A program made the translations under genes and the position numbers. Below are positions 10,233 through 15,543 of a stretch of 64,000 nt of DNA, piece by piece; positions within the stretch are counted from its first letter, which is position 1; each line of letters begins with the position of its first letter. The notes below the pieces were generated by a model that ran no database searches, had not been told where the DNA came from, and was given only the letters and a program-made list of their open reading frames with translations. The DNA comes from Selenomonas timonae (lineage in GTDB: Bacteria > Bacillota > Negativicutes > Selenomonadales > Selenomonadaceae): NCBI RefSeq assembly GCF_014250475.1, contig NZ_CP060204.1, positions 496,001 through 560,000 on the forward strand, written 5' to 3'.

Positions 10233-10261
10233 TTGACAGTGGCTCAATAAATCTCTATAAT
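10233..10261 (+). promoter_or_regulatory. Consensus sigma-70 promoter for the DUF1653 gene
   Basis: TTGACA (10233-10238) and TATAAT (10256-10261) are both perfect consensus with a 17-base spacer, 44 bases ahead of the ATG. Confidence 0.8.
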
Positions 10262-10304
10262 CGTGCAGGGAGCATCCCATAATACAGGAAACAGGGAGCA
10301 GAAT

Positions 10305-10559
10305 ATGACACGCAAACAACCAAAGCACGGCGAGATCTGGCGGCATTTCAAGGGGAATCTCTACCGCATTGAGACAGTGGCGGAGCACACGGAGACGGGC
10401 GAACTGCTCGCCGTCTATCAGGCACTCTACGGGACGTACGGCATCTACGCGCGCCCGCTCGCGATGTTCCTGAGCGAGGTCGATCGCGCCAAGTACCCGG
10501 ATGCAACACAGAAATATCGCTTCGAAAGAGTGCAGCCAAAGGACGCTTTTCTCCTCTGA
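10305..10559 (+). CDS. DUF1653 domain protein
   Basis: 84 residues from the ATG at 10305, chosen because the frame's earlier start would overlap the promoter's transcript start. [26 protein letters not shown] and VYQALYG.YGI.ARPL.MF match the DUF1653 family of small bacterial proteins. Members are widespread and of unknown function. It has its own near-perfect promoter and no operon partner. Confidence 0.8.
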
Positions 10560-10700
10560 AAATAAACGCCGTAGTATATGACCATAAATAAAACATAACT
10601 GCCATTTATGTTTTCAATGTCAAAGTTTCATAGGGCTTTTGTCCAAAATATAGCAGGAAAAACGGAATAGAGAGAGAATTATAAGAATTCGTCGAAAGAA

Positions 10701-10726
10701 AGTTTCCGAAATATATTACGGAAACT
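10701..10726. promoter_or_regulatory. Inverted repeat ahead of the SLC13 permease gene
   Basis: AGTTTCCG (10701-10708) and CGGAAACT (10719-10726) flank an AT-rich core that is itself nearly palindromic. It lies about 60 bases ahead of the permease ATG. It lacks the T run of a terminator, so it is a candidate operator. Nothing else is clear in 10560-10787. Confidence 0.35.
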
Positions 10727-10787
10727 AATCGGGCTTGTTGATACCCGCAGCAATCCCGAACGAACTGTATGAATAGGAGATGTATTC

Positions 10788-12047
10788 ATGGATGCAGCAA
10801 TGCTGACATTGGGTGTTCTCGGGGTGGCGGCGTTCCTCTTCGCCACAGAGATTATCCCTCTCGCCGTCACGGCAATGGGCGCGGCGATCGCGCTCGGACT
10901 CTTGGGGGTGCTCACCCCGGCACAGGTATTCTCAGGACTGTCCAATTCCACGGTCGTCCTTTTCGCCGGTATGTTCATCATCGGCGCCGCGATGTTCCAG
11001 ACGGGACTCGCGCAAAAAATCGGCATCGCCGTCGTCAAAAAATCGGGCAATGACGAGCGTGCATTAATGGCGGCACTGATGCTCATAACGATCGTGCTCT
11101 CGTCCGTGTCCTCGAATACGGCGACAGTCGCGTGCCTCATGCCCGTCGTCATCCAGATCTGCGCTGCGGCAAAACTGCCCGTCTCACCGCAGCTCATGGC
11201 GCTCGCCGTCGCGGCAAATGTCGGCGGTACGATCACGATGATCGGCACGCCGCCGAACATCCTCATGAGCGCGACGCTCGGTGCCTCGGGACTAACGCCG
11301 TTCGGCTTCTTCGAATTCGCATGGATTGGTATCCCGCTCTCCATCGCGGGCATGATCTACATGCTCACGATCGGCCGCAAGCTCTGCCCGCGCAAGCTCG
11401 TGGACAGCGAGGCGGTCGCAGGTGAGGCGGAGGAGGCAAAGGATCCGCGCAAGATGGTCATCTGCGCCGTCATCCTGATCGGCGTTGTCGTCGCAATGGT
11501 GCTCGAAAAGCAGATCAACGTCCCGATGCAGACCTCGGCGATCATCGGCGGTCTCCTCTGCGTCCTCACGGGCTGCCTCTCGGAGAAGCAGGCGTATCAG
11601 GGCGTTGACTGGACGACCATCTTCCTCTTTGCAGGTATGCTCCCGCTCGCCAGCGCGATGGATCACAGCGGCGCAGGCAAGCTCATTGCAGACTTCGTCG
11701 TCGGACTCATCGGCGACCATCCGTCCCCGATGCTCATCGTCGGTGCAATGTTCGCCCTCTCGTGCGGCCTGACGCAGTTCATGTCGAACACGGCGGCAGC
11801 CGCGCTCCTCGCGCCGATTGCGATCTCCATCGCGCAGTCCATCGGCGTCTCCCCATATCCGGTCGTCATGGCGATCGGCATCGCTGCATCCTGCGCATTT
11901 ACGACGCCGGTTGCAACGCCGCCGAACACCCTCGTTCTCGGCCCCGGACAGTTCCGCTTCATGGACTACGTCAAGGTCGGCGTTCCGCTCGTCTTCGTCT
12001 CGCTGATCGTCTGCCTTGTCGTCATCCCCCTCGTCTGGCCGTTCTAA
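10788..12047 (+). CDS. SLC13/DASS-type anion permease
   Basis: 419 residues with about ten membrane segments. Two SNT signatures (SSNTATVAC near residue 105 and MSNTAAAALLAP near 333), each followed by a second half-site (GTPPN and TPPN), are the sodium and carboxylate sites of the divalent anion:Na+ symporter family. Likely imports a dicarboxylate, or possibly sulfate or another anion, across the inner membrane. It is followed by a hairpin and then the first SHMT-like gene, so it is probably a separate transcript. Confidence 0.85.
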   Translation: MDAAMLTLGVLGVAAFLFATEIIPLAVTAMGAAIALGLLGVLTPAQVFSGLSNSTVVLFAGMFIIGAAMFQTGLAQKIGIAVVKKSGNDERALMAALMLITIVLSSVSSNTATVACLMPVVIQICAAAKLPVSPQLMALAVAANVGGTITMIGTPPNILMSATLGASGLTPFGFFEFAWIGIPLSIAGMIYMLTIGRKLCPRKLVDSEAVAGEAEEAKDPRKMVICAVILIGVVVAMVLEKQINVPMQTSAIIGGLLCVLTGCLSEKQAYQGVDWTTIFLFAGMLPLASAMDHSGAGKLIADFVVGLIGDHPSPMLIVGAMFALSCGLTQFMSNTAAAALLAPIAISIAQSIGVSPYPVVMAIGIAASCAFTTPVATPPNTLVLGPGQFRFMDYVKVGVPLVFVSLIVCLVVIPLVWPF

Positions 12048-12126
12048 TCGAGAGCATATATAGATAAACGGCGTCTCCTTGCACGACCGTGAATGAATCG
12101 AACTGAACTGAAAAGTCGTTCACCGC

Positions 12127-12158
12127 ATGACAGGTGTATCCTCGGGTACACCTGTCAT
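12127..12158. terminator. Hairpin after the permease gene
   Basis: Perfect 12-bp stem ATGACAGGTGTA/TACACCTGTCAT with an 8-base loop, followed by TTTCAT. Weak T tract, so it could be a partial terminator or an attenuator ahead of the next gene. Confidence 0.55.
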
Positions 12159-12182
12159 TTCATGGCACACAAGGAGAATATC

Positions 12183-13502
12183 ATGAAAAAAGAAGAAATG
12201 CTGAACCATCTGAAGGCATTCGACCCCGCGATCTTCACCTTCCTGCAGGACGAGATCCAGCGGCAGCGCTGCACTCTCTCGCTGATCCCGACGGTCAACG
12301 CCATGTCGCCGCTCGCTGCCTTTCTCGAGGGGAGTGCGCTCGCAAACAGCACCCTCGAGGGCTGCGGAGCACGTCATGCCAGTTCCGTCGAGGAGCTTGT
12401 CCGCACGCGCGCACAGGAACTCTTCGGCAGCGCGCACGCTGTCGTGCGGCTCGGCAACATCGCCGCAGCCTCGCGTGTCGCATTTCTTGCGCTGTTGCAG
12501 CCGGGCGATACCGTCCTCTCCTTCAACCGCAGGAAAGAGGAGCACTGTGCGGGGCTGAACTACCATTTCGAGAACTTCGGCATTGACCCTGCCCTCCAAA
12601 AGGTGGACTGGGACGAGGTCATGCAGCTCGCCGAACGTGTGAAGCCGCGCCTCATCATCTTCTCGCCTGTCAGCTATCCGTGCGTGCCGAACTACGAGCG
12701 GCTCGCCGCCGTTGCGCGCGCCGTGGGCGCATATCTCTGGGTCGACATCGGGCAGTGCGTCGGGCTCGTTGCGGCGGGGCTCATCCCCTCGCCCGTAGCG
12801 CTTGCCGATGTTGTCAGCTTCCCGACGAACGACTCGCTGCGCGGGCCTGACGGCGCGATCCTCCTCTGCACGAAGGAGCTTGCGCCGCAGATGGACGCCG
12901 CCGTCGCAAACACGGGGCATATCTCCCTGCACATGAACCACCTCGCCGCGCTCGGCTTTGCCCTGCATGCAGCTGCACAGCCGCGCTTCCGCGCGTACGG
13001 GGAGCAGGTGCTCGCGAACAGCCGCGCGCTCGCCGCAGCCCTCAAGGAGCAGGGCATCAACCTCCTCGCGGGCGGCACCGAGACCCATCTCATCCTCGCC
13101 GCTCCTGCGGCGGGCGTTGACATCGTGGACACGGTGCACGCCCTCGGACGCATGGGCATCTATGTCAAACGCGACAAGATCCCGACCATGCGCCCCGAGA
13201 TCATGCTCTCCGCGCTGCGCCTCTCGACACTGAACCCGACCACGCGCGGGCTCAAGGAGGCGGACATGTCCATCATTGCCGACGTACTCGCGCGCACCCT
13301 CAGCGGGAAATGCCCCGCCGAGGAGGAGGATTCGGTGTGCATGAAGATCGCAAAGCTCCTCATGGACAAGCCCACCTTCTCCGAGGAGTGGATGAACGAG
13401 GGCGCAGCCGCACAGACTGTCGCGCCCACCTCCGACACGGGCAGCGTCCATGAGCACGCCGCCAACGAGCGGAAAACGATCCTCAAGAGCTTATTCAAAT
13501 AA
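12183..13502 (+). CDS. SHMT-like fold-type I protein lacking the PLP lysine (copy 1)
   Basis: 439 residues from the ATG at 12183 (AAGGAGA upstream). It aligns along its length with serine hydroxymethyltransferase: QPGDTVLSFN, WVDIGQCVGLVAAG, LRGPDGA, AGGTETHL. In GlyA the PLP Schiff-base lysine lies in TTHKTL; here that segment is PTNDSL, so Lys is replaced by Asp217. The His that stacks on PLP (VDMAH) is Gln191. The PLP-phosphate-anchoring Asp (WVD) and the substrate-binding Arg (SALRLST) remain. It therefore cannot form the internal aldimine and is unlikely to be a standard SHMT. A C-terminal extension of about 60 residues has no SHMT counterpart. Role unknown. Confidence 0.75.
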   Translation: MKKEEMLNHLKAFDPAIFTFLQDEIQRQRCTLSLIPTVNAMSPLAAFLEGSALANSTLEGCGARHASSVEELVRTRAQELFGSAHAVVRLGNIAAASRVAFLALLQPGDTVLSFNRRKEEHCAGLNYHFENFGIDPALQKVDWDEVMQLAERVKPRLIIFSPVSYPCVPNYERLAAVARAVGAYLWVDIGQCVGLVAAGLIPSPVALADVVSFPTNDSLRGPDGAILLCTKELAPQMDAAVANTGHISLHMNHLAALGFALHAAAQPRFRAYGEQVLANSRALAAALKEQGINLLAGGTETHLILAAPAAGVDIVDTVHALGRMGIYVKRDKIPTMRPEIMLSALRLSTLNPTTRGLKEADMSIIADVLARTLSGKCPAEEEDSVCMKIAKLLMDKPTFSEEWMNEGAAAQTVAPTSDTGSVHEHAANERKTILKSLFK

Positions 13503-13519
13503 CGGAGCATCAAACAACC

Positions 13520-13549
13520 TCCGACCGCGTGCAGTCGTATGCGGTCGGA
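13520..13549 (+). terminator. Intrinsic terminator after SHMT-like copy 1
   Basis: TCCGACCGC (13520-13528) pairs with GCGGTCGGA (13541-13549), followed by TTTTTTAT. Confidence 0.85.
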
Positions 13550-13667
13550 TTTTTTATCGTAAAATATTCAGAAGCGTCAACAAATGGATGATTTGTACGC
13601 CGCATTGTGCTATACTAAAGGAACAAGACTGAACGAATCCCATTTTTACGGAAGAGGAGAATTGCCC

Positions 13668-14903
13668 ATGAAACGTGAAGAAGTCGTCAACCACCTGAAG
13701 ACATTCGACCCCGAGATCTATGGTCTCTTGGAGGAGGAACGCCAGCGCCAGCGCTACACTCTCTCCCTCATGCCGAACATGAACGCCATGTCGCCGTTCG
13801 CGAAATATCTCGAGGGCAGCGTCCTCACGAACAGCTTCTTTGACCGCCACGACGAGACCACGAGCGGCGGCCTCCACCTTGACGCCATCGTGCGCAAGCG
13901 CGCCATGGAGCTCTTCCACAGCGACCACGCCATCGTGCGCCTCGGCAACATTGTCGCCGCCTCGCGTGTCGTCTTTCAGGCGCTGCTGGAGCCTGGCGAC
14001 ACCGTCCTCTCCTTCAACCTCAGGAAAAAGGATCACGTCGCGGGACTCTCCTACAACTTTGAGAACTACGGCATCGAGCCGGGCACGCAGGAGATCGACT
14101 GGGGGGCAGTACGGGAGCAGGCGGAGCGCGTAAAGCCGCGCCTCATTATCTTCTCGCCCGTCAGCTACCCGCGTACCATCGACTATCAGATCCTCTACGA
14201 GATTGCGCAGACCGTCGACGCCTACCTCTGGGTCGACATCAGCCAGTCCGTCGGACTCGTCGCGGCAAAGCTCGTGCCCTCGCCTGTGCCCCTCGCCGAT
14301 GTCGTCACCTTCTCCACGCGCGACTCGCTGCGCGGCCCCGACGGCGCCGTCCTCCTCACGAAGCGCGACATCGCCGCGCGCATGGATGCCGCCGTCATCA
14401 ACACGGGGCATGAGGCGCTGCACATGAACCACCTCGCCGCGCTCGGTGTCGTCCTGCGCGAGGCAGGCAGTGAGCGCTACCGCAGCTATGCCGCGCAGGT
14501 CGTACAGAACGCACAGGTACTCGCGCGCACCCTCGCCGACCACGGCGCCTCCGTCCTCTGCGGCGGTACGGATACCCACCTCGTCCTCGCCTCTGCCGCC
14601 GCCGGCATCGATACAGATGCGGCGGTCAAGGCAATCGGACAGATGGGCATCCGAGTCAAGACCGACAACGTCCCCACGATGAACTCCGGCCTCTTCCTCC
14701 ACGCCCTGCGCCTCTCGACCTCGAACCCCACGACGCGCGGAATGCGCGAGGAGGACATCGCCTACATCGGCTCCCTGCTCGCAAAACCGCTTACCACCGT
14801 CCTCTCCCCTGAGGAGATCGAGAAGACGCGGCAGGAGATCGTCGCCCTCGTCAAGGATGCCCCCGTCTTCTCCGAAGAGTGGATGGGCGACTCCGAGGGC
14901 TGA
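13668..14903 (+). CDS. SHMT-like fold-type I protein lacking the PLP lysine (copy 2)
   Basis: 411 residues from the ATG at 13668 (GAAGAGGAGA upstream). A diverged paralog of the preceding gene with the same departures from SHMT: the PLP-lysine segment reads STRDSL, giving Asp219, and Gln193 replaces the PLP-stacking His. SHMT landmarks such as VRLGNIVAAS, EPGDTVLSFN, LRGPDGA and CGGTDTHLVLA are kept. It is transcribed separately (terminator upstream; a TATACT at 13612-13617). That two copies keep the same Asp while diverging elsewhere suggests a selected function, not decay. Possible roles: PLP-independent enzyme, small-molecule or RNA binding, or a regulatory subunit. Confidence 0.75.
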   Translation: MKREEVVNHLKTFDPEIYGLLEEERQRQRYTLSLMPNMNAMSPFAKYLEGSVLTNSFFDRHDETTSGGLHLDAIVRKRAMELFHSDHAIVRLGNIVAASRVVFQALLEPGDTVLSFNLRKKDHVAGLSYNFENYGIEPGTQEIDWGAVREQAERVKPRLIIFSPVSYPRTIDYQILYEIAQTVDAYLWVDISQSVGLVAAKLVPSPVPLADVVTFSTRDSLRGPDGAVLLTKRDIAARMDAAVINTGHEALHMNHLAALGVVLREAGSERYRSYAAQVVQNAQVLARTLADHGASVLCGGTDTHLVLASAAAGIDTDAAVKAIGQMGIRVKTDNVPTMNSGLFLHALRLSTSNPTTRGMREEDIAYIGSLLAKPLTTVLSPEEIEKTRQEIVALVKDAPVFSEEWMGDSEG

Positions 14904-14927
14904 CCACACAATATTTGCATAGAAACG

Positions 14928-14955
14928 CGCCCCACCGAGAATGATCGGCGGGGCG
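14928..14955 (+). terminator. Intrinsic terminator after SHMT-like copy 2
   Basis: CGCCCCaCCGA pairs with TCGGcGGGGCG (one mismatch), 6-base loop, followed by TATTTCGTT. Confidence 0.65.
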
Positions 14956-15015
14956 TATTTCGTTGCAGATGAATGCATTTGATGCTATGCTGAAAACAAA
15001 AAGGAGGTGCTCACT

Positions 15016-15243
15016 ATGGCAAACGCTTTGGTACAATTTCGCACAGATGAGACGGAGCGGACGAAAGCCGCTGCAATCTGTGCTGCACTCGGCATGGATC
15101 TCCCGACCTATCTTCGTATGTGTGTCTCCCGCCTCGTCCGCGAGCGCGGAATCCCGTTTCACATGCATCTGGATGACGCGCCGATGATGCGCGGCATCCG
15201 CGCAATGCAGCATGCCTCGATGATTGCACACGAAGAGGGCATA
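15016..15243 (+). pseudogene. DinJ/RelB-type antitoxin gene, 3'-truncated
   Basis: AAGGAGGTG lies 6 bases ahead of the ATG at 15016. The first 76 or so residues (ALVQFRTDETE, GMDLPTYLRMC, RGIPFHM) fit DinJ-like ribbon-helix-helix antitoxins. After EEGIA the frame runs without a stop to 15579, but that part is the antisense of a radical-SAM gene, so the last residues of the antitoxin and the YafQ/RelE toxin expected downstream are gone. The junction near 15243 looks like a deletion that fused two convergent genes tail to tail. Confidence 0.75.
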
Positions 15244-15543
15244 GCATCCAATCGACCCCACCTCTGGGAAGATCTCGATGATCTTCTCCCCAATCGCACG
15301 CAGACGGTCGAAGCCCAGCACAAACGCATCCCCGTTGAGGAGGAAGATGCGTTCCACCGCACCGTAGTACCGCCGCGCCTCGCGCAGATCGCGCTCGATC
15401 TGCTCCATCGTCTCCACCGCGAACGGCACGTCGCGGTACATCGTGCAATAGCTGCACCGATTGTGGCTGCACCCCTGCGTCACCTACACGAGCAGCGAAT
15501 CCGCCTCATACGGCGGCCGATAAGTTGTCCCTGTGTATTTCAT
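15243..15543 (-). pseudogene. Radical SAM protein remnant (internal stop, 3' truncation)
   Basis: From the ATG at 15543 (GGGAGGATGCG upstream) the frame gives MKYTGTTYRPP and about 100 residues. They include GCSHNRCSYCTMYRD, whose three Cys bind the 4Fe-4S cluster, and FLLNGDAF. A TAG interrupts it after codon 19 where relatives have Gln (CAG). The reading ends at SIGCYA, where the truncated antitoxin on the other strand begins. Full-length relatives are several times longer. It retains a good promoter and operator-like palindrome. Confidence 0.75.

Follow-up and report, generated by a model that had tools for sequence, protein, structure and literature searches.

Two tandem genes of Selenomonas timonae, here called A and B, encode proteins of the serine hydroxymethyltransferase (SHMT) fold that have lost the lysine by which this enzyme holds its cofactor, pyridoxal phosphate (PLP), and they belong to a family whose genes mostly lie directly downstream of a transporter gene. 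Both lie in the window, the stretch of 64,000 nucleotides analyzed here (positions 496001-560000 of a 2.35 Mb single-contig genome); by gene B, the closest named relative is Selenomonas sp. FOBRC6, at 98% identity. With the catalytic residue lost and purifying selection acting on the genes, we consider A and B to be, very probably, pseudoenzymes, and we judge a functional tie to transport to be likely. We propose, with some hesitation, that they are ligand-sensing or gating partners of carboxylate/anion transporters. The features concerned, open reading frames (ORFs) A and B among them, are:

12183-13502, + strand: ORF A, Lys-less SHMT-fold protein of 439 residues, C-terminal tail present
13668-14903, + strand: ORF B, Lys-less SHMT-fold protein of 411 residues, without the C-terminal tail
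12831-12833, + strand: Asp217 codon of A, at the Schiff-base lysine position
14322-14324, + strand: Asp219 codon of B, at the Schiff-base lysine position
10788-12047, + strand: gene for a DASS/CitMHS-type sodium-coupled anion symporter of 419 residues, directly 5' of A, from profile and VcINDY matches

Loss of the cofactor lysine and remodeling of the pocket

Both proteins are full-length SHMT homologues, with Pfam SHMT matches spanning positions 1-398 (A) and 1-397 (B) of 399 (E 1e-57 and 1.1e-64), and they are 57% identical to each other. The end-to-end alignment claimed in the original prediction is right in that it runs near full length, but it hides one deletion of about 5 residues and another of 8. 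Against the NCBIfam SHMT model NF000586, A and B score 230.8 and 249.6 bits, below the cut-off of 335; an ordinary glyA, for which a search elsewhere in the genome had been suggested, is present at G000:C1:2248144-2249277 and scores 592 bits. An AlphaFold2 model of B, built on an alignment of 16 Selenomonas-group sequences, has a predicted local distance difference test score (pLDDT) of 78 and a predicted template modeling score of 0.82, with segments 30-40, 61-66 and 399-411 below pLDDT 50. This model matches SHMT structures best (Foldseek; VIA Z 39.6, root-mean-square deviation 2.4, 356 residues), and every row listed in the structure searches was an SHMT, including the Arabidopsis SHM7 structure; the literature looked through for SHM7 as a precedent yielded no relevant passage.

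Active-site residues were compared in an alignment of 93 relatives (68 Lys-less proteins, 5 Lys-containing paralogues and 20 glyA products), numbered after the SHMT of Geobacillus stearothermophilus (bsSHMT). Passages of PMC10397204 assign the Schiff base to Lys226, stacking on PLP to His122 and contact with O3' to His200, and describe Asp197 as binding the pyridine N1, Asn98 and His125 as holding Asp197, and Arg357 as holding the substrate carboxylate. As originally predicted, the THKTL motif reads TNDSL in A (Asp217) and TRDSL in B (Asp219). The Lys226 column is occupied by Asp in 61 of the 68 aligned rows, or 62 of 69 distinct proteins when one shorter sequence is included (from 122 genes found), and by Lys in none. 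A nearby shifted lysine, which an alignment with GlyA had been recommended to look for, is excluded, since none of the 69 proteins has a Lys 6 columns or fewer from the site. The seven non-Asp proteins carry Glu, Gly, Ala, Asn or a gap; four of them are B orthologues (Glu twice, Gly and Ala), the other three having Asn or a gap, and this variation leaves the earlier idea that Asp itself was a functional gain without support.

Of the remaining contacts, Asp197 and Arg357 are kept in all 68 Lys-less rows. The original prediction had correctly listed the substrate Arg and an Asp as kept, but had assigned that Asp to the phosphate instead of the pyridine N1. It had also placed Gln at the PLP-stacking His; the Gln sits at His200 (63/68), and the stacking position is still His in both proteins (H121 in A, H123 in B), its column holding His in 53, Tyr in 12, Leu in 2 and Phe in 1 of the 68 rows, with the alignment less sure here as the 8-residue deletion comes close after. 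Asn98 has become Ser (65/68), His125 Gly (60/68) and Ser172 Val (62/68), and Tyr60, Tyr61 and Gly62 are absent from all 68 with the deletion of about 5 residues. Ser occupies the Ser93 column in 16/68 rows, and Tyr the Tyr51 column in 11/68, the Tyr51-Tyr61 region being poorly aligned beside the deletion. What has been gained is a loop of the form RKx(E/D)(H/Y), with Arg-Lys at columns 118-119 in 68/68 rows and Glu or Asp at column 121 in 66/68; column 255 is His in 65/68. Read from the alignment, the pocket has lost much of the SHMT machinery (phosphate, substrate-Tyr and other contacts), has kept the anion-holding Arg and the Asp, and has gained a charged loop. By their aligned active sites, A and B are shown not to be SHMTs, and we infer that the old site would carry no covalent PLP.

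These residues also bear on whether the proteins might hold PLP or pyridoxamine phosphate (PMP) non-covalently, as external-aldimine-type or PMP enzymes. Such use would be in keeping with the invariant Asp197, with His, Tyr or Phe at the His122 column in 66/68 rows and with entries 1yjs and 1yjy, whose titles describe crystals of K226Q and K226M bsSHMT with glycine and serine; however, Tyr51, Ser93/Gly94 of the phosphate pocket, Asn98, His125, His200 and Ser172 are altered in most or nearly all members, and we regard this explanation as improbable.

A single origin followed by purifying selection

A family profile built from 18 members gives scores of about 529 bits or more to members and 339 or less to all else. 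It identified 122 genes in 89 of 189 Selenomonadaceae genomes, as counted from a hand-typed list of the search output. Mapping of the Lys-to-Asp form, as had been advised, placed members solely in Selenomonadaceae (7 of its 11 genomes) within a 398-genome sample of the phylum; no member was found in that sample outside this family, where the best hit was 339 bits, and the three best outsiders of the profile search read THKTL. Among 14 genomes of the genus, all have B and glyA and 12 have A; the two without A, S. flueggei and S. felix, retain a diverged transporter, 82% identical to that of the window.

In a maximum-likelihood tree of the 93 proteins, the 68 Lys-less sequences form one clade with a Shimodaira-Hasegawa-like approximate likelihood ratio support of 100, on a long stem of 1.41 changes per column. 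A and B are two branches inside this clade, older than the split of the Selenomonas species compared, and the family has diverged to about 40% identity. Because the Lys-less proteins form one clade, parallel substitution is rejected: the shared change, which had been read as conserved in parallel in two copies, was inherited. Adjoining the clade are L062-L066, Lys-containing paralogues of other Negativicutes families, a link that is tentative in a tree made by a quick method and carrying a long-branch warning. As for the genomic setting of the Lys-containing paralogues of other Negativicutes, those of L138-L141 follow, in three loci, a small gene of one cluster (DUF3870 in L138, the sole one scanned), and an SDF-type (DctA/GltP-like) transporter adjoins the L138 copy and lies two genes off in L141.

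The ratio of nonsynonymous to synonymous substitution rates (dN/dS) was 0.12-0.29 for A (7 sequences, 21 pairs) and 0.05-0.21 for B (9 sequences, 36 pairs); neither set contains an internal stop. At the level of sequence comparison, these data show a single origin from a PLP-containing SHMT relative followed by purifying selection. Decaying paralogues heading for loss might be suspected from the 100 of 189 Selenomonadaceae genomes without a member (many of them incomplete), the loss of A from S. flueggei and S. felix and the remnants of about 40 residues of an extra copy in G158 and G161. This suspicion is contradicted by the selection test (dN/dS 0.05-0.29, 16 sequences free of internal stops) and by the 122 genes in 89 genomes, to the point that we find decay scarcely credible; the low ratios, the single origin, the long stem and the conservation of the family in 89/189 genomes uphold the earlier preference for a new function.

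Short N-terminal remnants of an extra Lys-less copy, found in L136 between A and the second transporter and at G158:C18:19460-19579 and G161:C16:216099-216215, are scars of tandem duplication. Origin from a mobile element was rejected: all matches among plasmid records (244) and phage records (47) fall short of 60% identity. The listed rows show 32-35% identity and were taken as ordinary SHMT by identity alone, with the lysine unread.

Linkage to transporters

The main functional clue, overlooked by the original prediction, is the transporter gene 5' of A. Its product matches Pfam CitMHS (300 bits) and Na_sulph_symp (134 bits), exceeds the cut-off of NCBIfam TIGR00785 dass (223.4 vs. 198.6 bits), aligns with VcINDY sequences at E 5e-33 and carries Ser-Asn-Thr (SNT) motifs at residues 109 and 333; the two SNT motifs of VcINDY touch substrate carboxylates, according to passages of PMC9098524.

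Linkage was tallied over 55 distinct Lys-less genes with flanking DNA, of the 122 known, in genes called by a simple ORF caller; the tally omits repeats (L123=L053, L136=L011, L126=L058) and the Lys-containing L138-L141 and skips a spurious 60-residue ORF in the window. For 42 of the 55, the adjacent upstream gene, on the same strand, encodes a transporter (26 within 60 bases, 4 overlapping), and another 5, all B copies with that of the window among them, come second in a transporter-A-B order. The remaining 8 have no transporter (L008, the second copy of L056, L058/L126, L122, L128, L129, L133 and L134). Two of the transporter types, a 419-residue and a 515-residue DASS protein, are 27% identical and together make up 33 of the 42; the third, of 471 residues (9/42), is without significant BLAST similarity to the DASS types, matches CitMHS weakly in Pfam and gave no sequence match in the PDB and no match in NCBIfam. 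That the transporter type changes while the position stays the same is a stronger argument than the count of 42 cases. L010 and L011/L136 show a transporter-A-transporter-B order, and the unit was therefore duplicated whole.

In a control, 21 glyA loci from 21 genomes were searched for homologues of these transporters with an E cut-off of 1e-5, and none was found; the flank covered was 1.5 kb at the glyA of the window's genome and about 3 kb upstream at each of the 20 others. On this count (0/21) a chance neighborhood was rejected. The window's genome has 12 CitMHS match pieces, so such genes are uncommon. Lys-less genes are thus linked to transporters.

The same neighborhoods bear on a role as regulatory pseudo-subunits in mixed oligomers with GlyA. 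Precedents for such a role are given in parts of PMC2748086, on inactive PLP-enzyme relatives such as the ornithine decarboxylase antizyme inhibitor, and of PMC3663545, on a dead deoxyhypusine synthase paralogue of trypanosomatids that activates its enzyme, and glyA is also present in 14/14 genus genomes. However, the linkage is to transporters, no glyA occurs in the neighborhoods examined, and the cross-dimer residues Tyr51 and Tyr61 are lost or not kept, leaving this role a slim prospect.

As for non-transporter neighbors, the commonest other cluster is near only 8 of the 55 genes. In L137 and L109, two loci of one genus, an OAD_gamma-like gene lies 28 bases 3' of the Lys-less gene and is followed on the same strand by the beta subunit gene of a sodium-pump decarboxylase (521 bits against Pfam OAD_beta in L137, where the gamma-like and beta genes were scanned; the order is the same in L109), and genes for a glycyl radical enzyme, an activase and a transaldolase-family protein precede the transporter (L137 6104-15187). 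This run of genes is an apparent operon, and its decarboxylase genes fit carboxylate use; the window's genome has an OAD_beta gene elsewhere. In L119, genes for a pyruvate formate-lyase and its activase lie upstream of the transporter. The neighbors in these three loci fit organic-acid metabolism, but the cases are few.

It is here that the main rival to a sensing role comes in, namely a PLP-independent enzyme that converts the imported carboxylate in a repurposed pocket, in which Lys120 of B could even be a migrated Schiff-base lysine. A transporter plus a catabolic enzyme is the commonest operon logic; the decarboxylase subunits 3' and the glycyl radical enzyme, activase and transaldolase-family genes 5' in L137/L109 would suit it, as would the invariance of Arg118, Lys119, Asp197 and Arg357, with His at column 255 in 65/68 rows, despite identity of about 40%. 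Nevertheless, only the transporter recurs widely (the next cluster at 8/55, the decarboxylase order in 2 loci of one genus), the three transporter types suggest no single substrate, and the structure searches list SHMTs alone, so that there is no PLP-free model of the fold. We therefore hold such an enzyme to be unlikely; non-covalent PLP/PMP use and mixed oligomers with GlyA are less likely than this.

Expression signals and the surrounding locus

Further features of the locus are as follows.

12048-12182, + strand: conserved intercistronic leader between transporter and A, with AAACGGC, CGACCGTGAA and GAACT blocks and predicted helices, from a 10-locus alignment and consensus fold
12127-12158, + strand: inverted repeat/hairpin 5' of A, followed by a T-run in relatives L010 and L011
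13520-13549, + strand: intrinsic terminator 3' of A
13606-13616, + strand: extended -10-like TGTGCTATACT 5' of B, from by-eye comparison across loci

Separate expression signals for the two genes had been claimed. Bearing on this are the terminator after A and the recurrence of TGTGCTATACT before B (exact in 4 of 7 other loci, L004, L005, L009 and L010, and with one or two differences by eye in the remaining three, L006, L007 and L011); TGTGCTATACT was not among the promoters that a scan of the window reported. We consider it likely that B has its own promoter in the window.

The leader between transporter and A, 135 bases long, has strictly conserved blocks and a predicted GUGAAC/GUUCAC helix across 10 loci, and 5 pairs of its hairpin have both bases changed in one or more of the 10 sequences; in L010 and L011 the T-run 3' of the hairpin makes it terminator-like. 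A covariance model trained on the 10 loci gave 10 strong matches in 60 genomes, which are the same loci by construction; under stricter filters nothing else in those genomes matched strongly, and the 4 genus genomes in which the transporter-A junction is absent gave no strong match either. Four matches were weak, at 21-25 bits, and were put down to chance, 21 further loci returned one match at E 0.35, and an Rfam scan of window positions 10500-13700 found no family for the leader at E 5. A possible role of the leader is to fix the amount of A relative to transporter.

Elsewhere in the locus, a near-perfect inverted repeat, AGTTTCCGAAATA/TATTACGGAAACT, stands at 10701-10726, 5' of the transporter gene and after a conserved GAGAGAGAATTA-like stretch, an arrangement also seen upstream of the transporter in several relatives; it is a possible operator or leader hairpin. 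A perfect sigma-70 consensus promoter (12/12, spacer 17) lies at 10233-10261, just 5' of a 98-residue ORF (10263-10559). Converging on B from the minus strand is a 210-residue ORF (14851-15483) that looks truncated and has CSHNRCSYC near its start, a putative radical SAM cysteine motif.

The C-terminal tail

The tail after the Trp of an FSEEW-like motif has 35-41 residues in 36 of the 68 Lys-less proteins, 22-24 in 18 and 6 in 14, the last being the B orthologues. Members linked to one or the other DASS type have the long tails, which in the group with the 419-residue DASS often have a basic amphipathic end (e.g. ERKTILKSLFK); tails of 22-24 residues mark a single clade, whose members are linked to the third transporter or have no linked transporter. 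That the tail is a docking element is only a hint, and its length follows the tree. Several genomes also have a second, short-tailed Lys-less copy (G267, G239, G062, G167, G224 and G292). The third transporter type is upstream of this copy in G267 and no transporter is next upstream in G167, G224 and G292, while the copy in G062 comes after what looks, on inspection by eye, like the gene of a LacI-type regulator; the copy in G239 lies outside the tally.

A candidate sensing or gating role

The Schiff-base lysine was lost once, together with phosphate, substrate-Tyr and other contacts, and we surmise that this left the PLP/substrate pocket emptied. With Arg357, Asp197 and the invariant Arg-Lys loop, the emptied pocket might bind a cytosolic carboxylate or another anion (passages of PMC10397204 describe ordinary SHMT as binding anions, sulfate and chloride, beside Arg357), and the ligand-bound protein would then report or control uptake by the cognate transporter. 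The amphipathic, often basic tail could dock on the transporter in most DASS-linked members other than B, and B, tailless and probably served by a promoter of its own, could by now be independent. Taken alone, this sensing or gating mechanism is put forward tentatively; we are more doubtful of the broader statement that one lysine loss turned a PLP-enzyme fold into a non-PII transporter regulator, re-paired with three transporter types.

Weighing against a sensing or gating role are the following: 1) 8 of the 55 genes are without a transporter next upstream, and in G047 and G170 the nearest 11 kb or so around A contain no such transporter; 2) the 42 linked cases share descent and amount to far fewer independent events; 3) upstream transporter ORFs are split or partial in several loci (both in L010, the second in L011, L109, L110, L124), with L056 at a contig edge; 4) the tail is absent in B even where a transporter adjoins (L006, L010, L011 and L135), and the window's B seems to have its own promoter; 5) the invariant polar residues and one genus's decarboxylase genes would also suit an enzyme.

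The family is a clean natural example of an enzyme that, after a single loss of its cofactor lysine, persisted in scores of genomes beside a new genetic partner. Should the pairing prove functional, DASS, a family that includes the human SLC13 citrate/dicarboxylate carriers, would have a partner of an unexpected kind. It is also a warning not to annotate such genes as glyA or to use them so in metabolic models.

Comparison with known systems

With GlyA (PF00464) the proteins share the fold (Z 39.6), Asp197, Arg357 and the near full-length alignment. In contrast to GlyA, the family is without the Schiff-base Lys, Tyr60 and Tyr61, has His200, Asn98, His125 and Ser172 replaced in most members and, for A and B, scores below the NCBIfam cut-off of 335 bits. 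The Lys-containing paralogues L062-L066 adjoin the Lys-less clade in the tree but differ in keeping Lys226, His122, His200 and Arg357 in 5/5, and the three that were scanned exceed the SHMT cut-off.

Ornithine decarboxylase antizyme inhibitors and LCB1, a subunit of serine palmitoyltransferase, act on polyamine metabolism or inside their own enzyme, and we know of no transporter link for either. Similar to the present family, they are inactive PLP-enzyme relatives, as parts of PMC2748086 describe, but they belong to other subfamilies or folds. The nearest functional analogues would be SbtB-SbtA and GlnK-AmtB. To our knowledge there is no sequence relation between SbtB or GlnK and the Lys-less family. 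What they have in common is a gene adjoining that of a transporter (directly downstream in 42/55 here) and, as proposed by analogy, a transporter with a cytosolic partner (passages of PMC8352866); the difference is that those partners have the PII fold and that the interaction was solved there and is surmised here. The transporter gene 5' of A encodes, like VcINDY, a DASS protein with both SNT motifs, and the parts of PMC9098524 that deal with VcINDY do not mention an SHMT-fold partner. Our search of the open-access literature brought up no paper that describes SHMTs lacking the lysine as a family or their pairing with transporters. Inactive PLP-enzyme relatives have been described before; the Lys-less SHMT family and its transporter pairing seem to be new.

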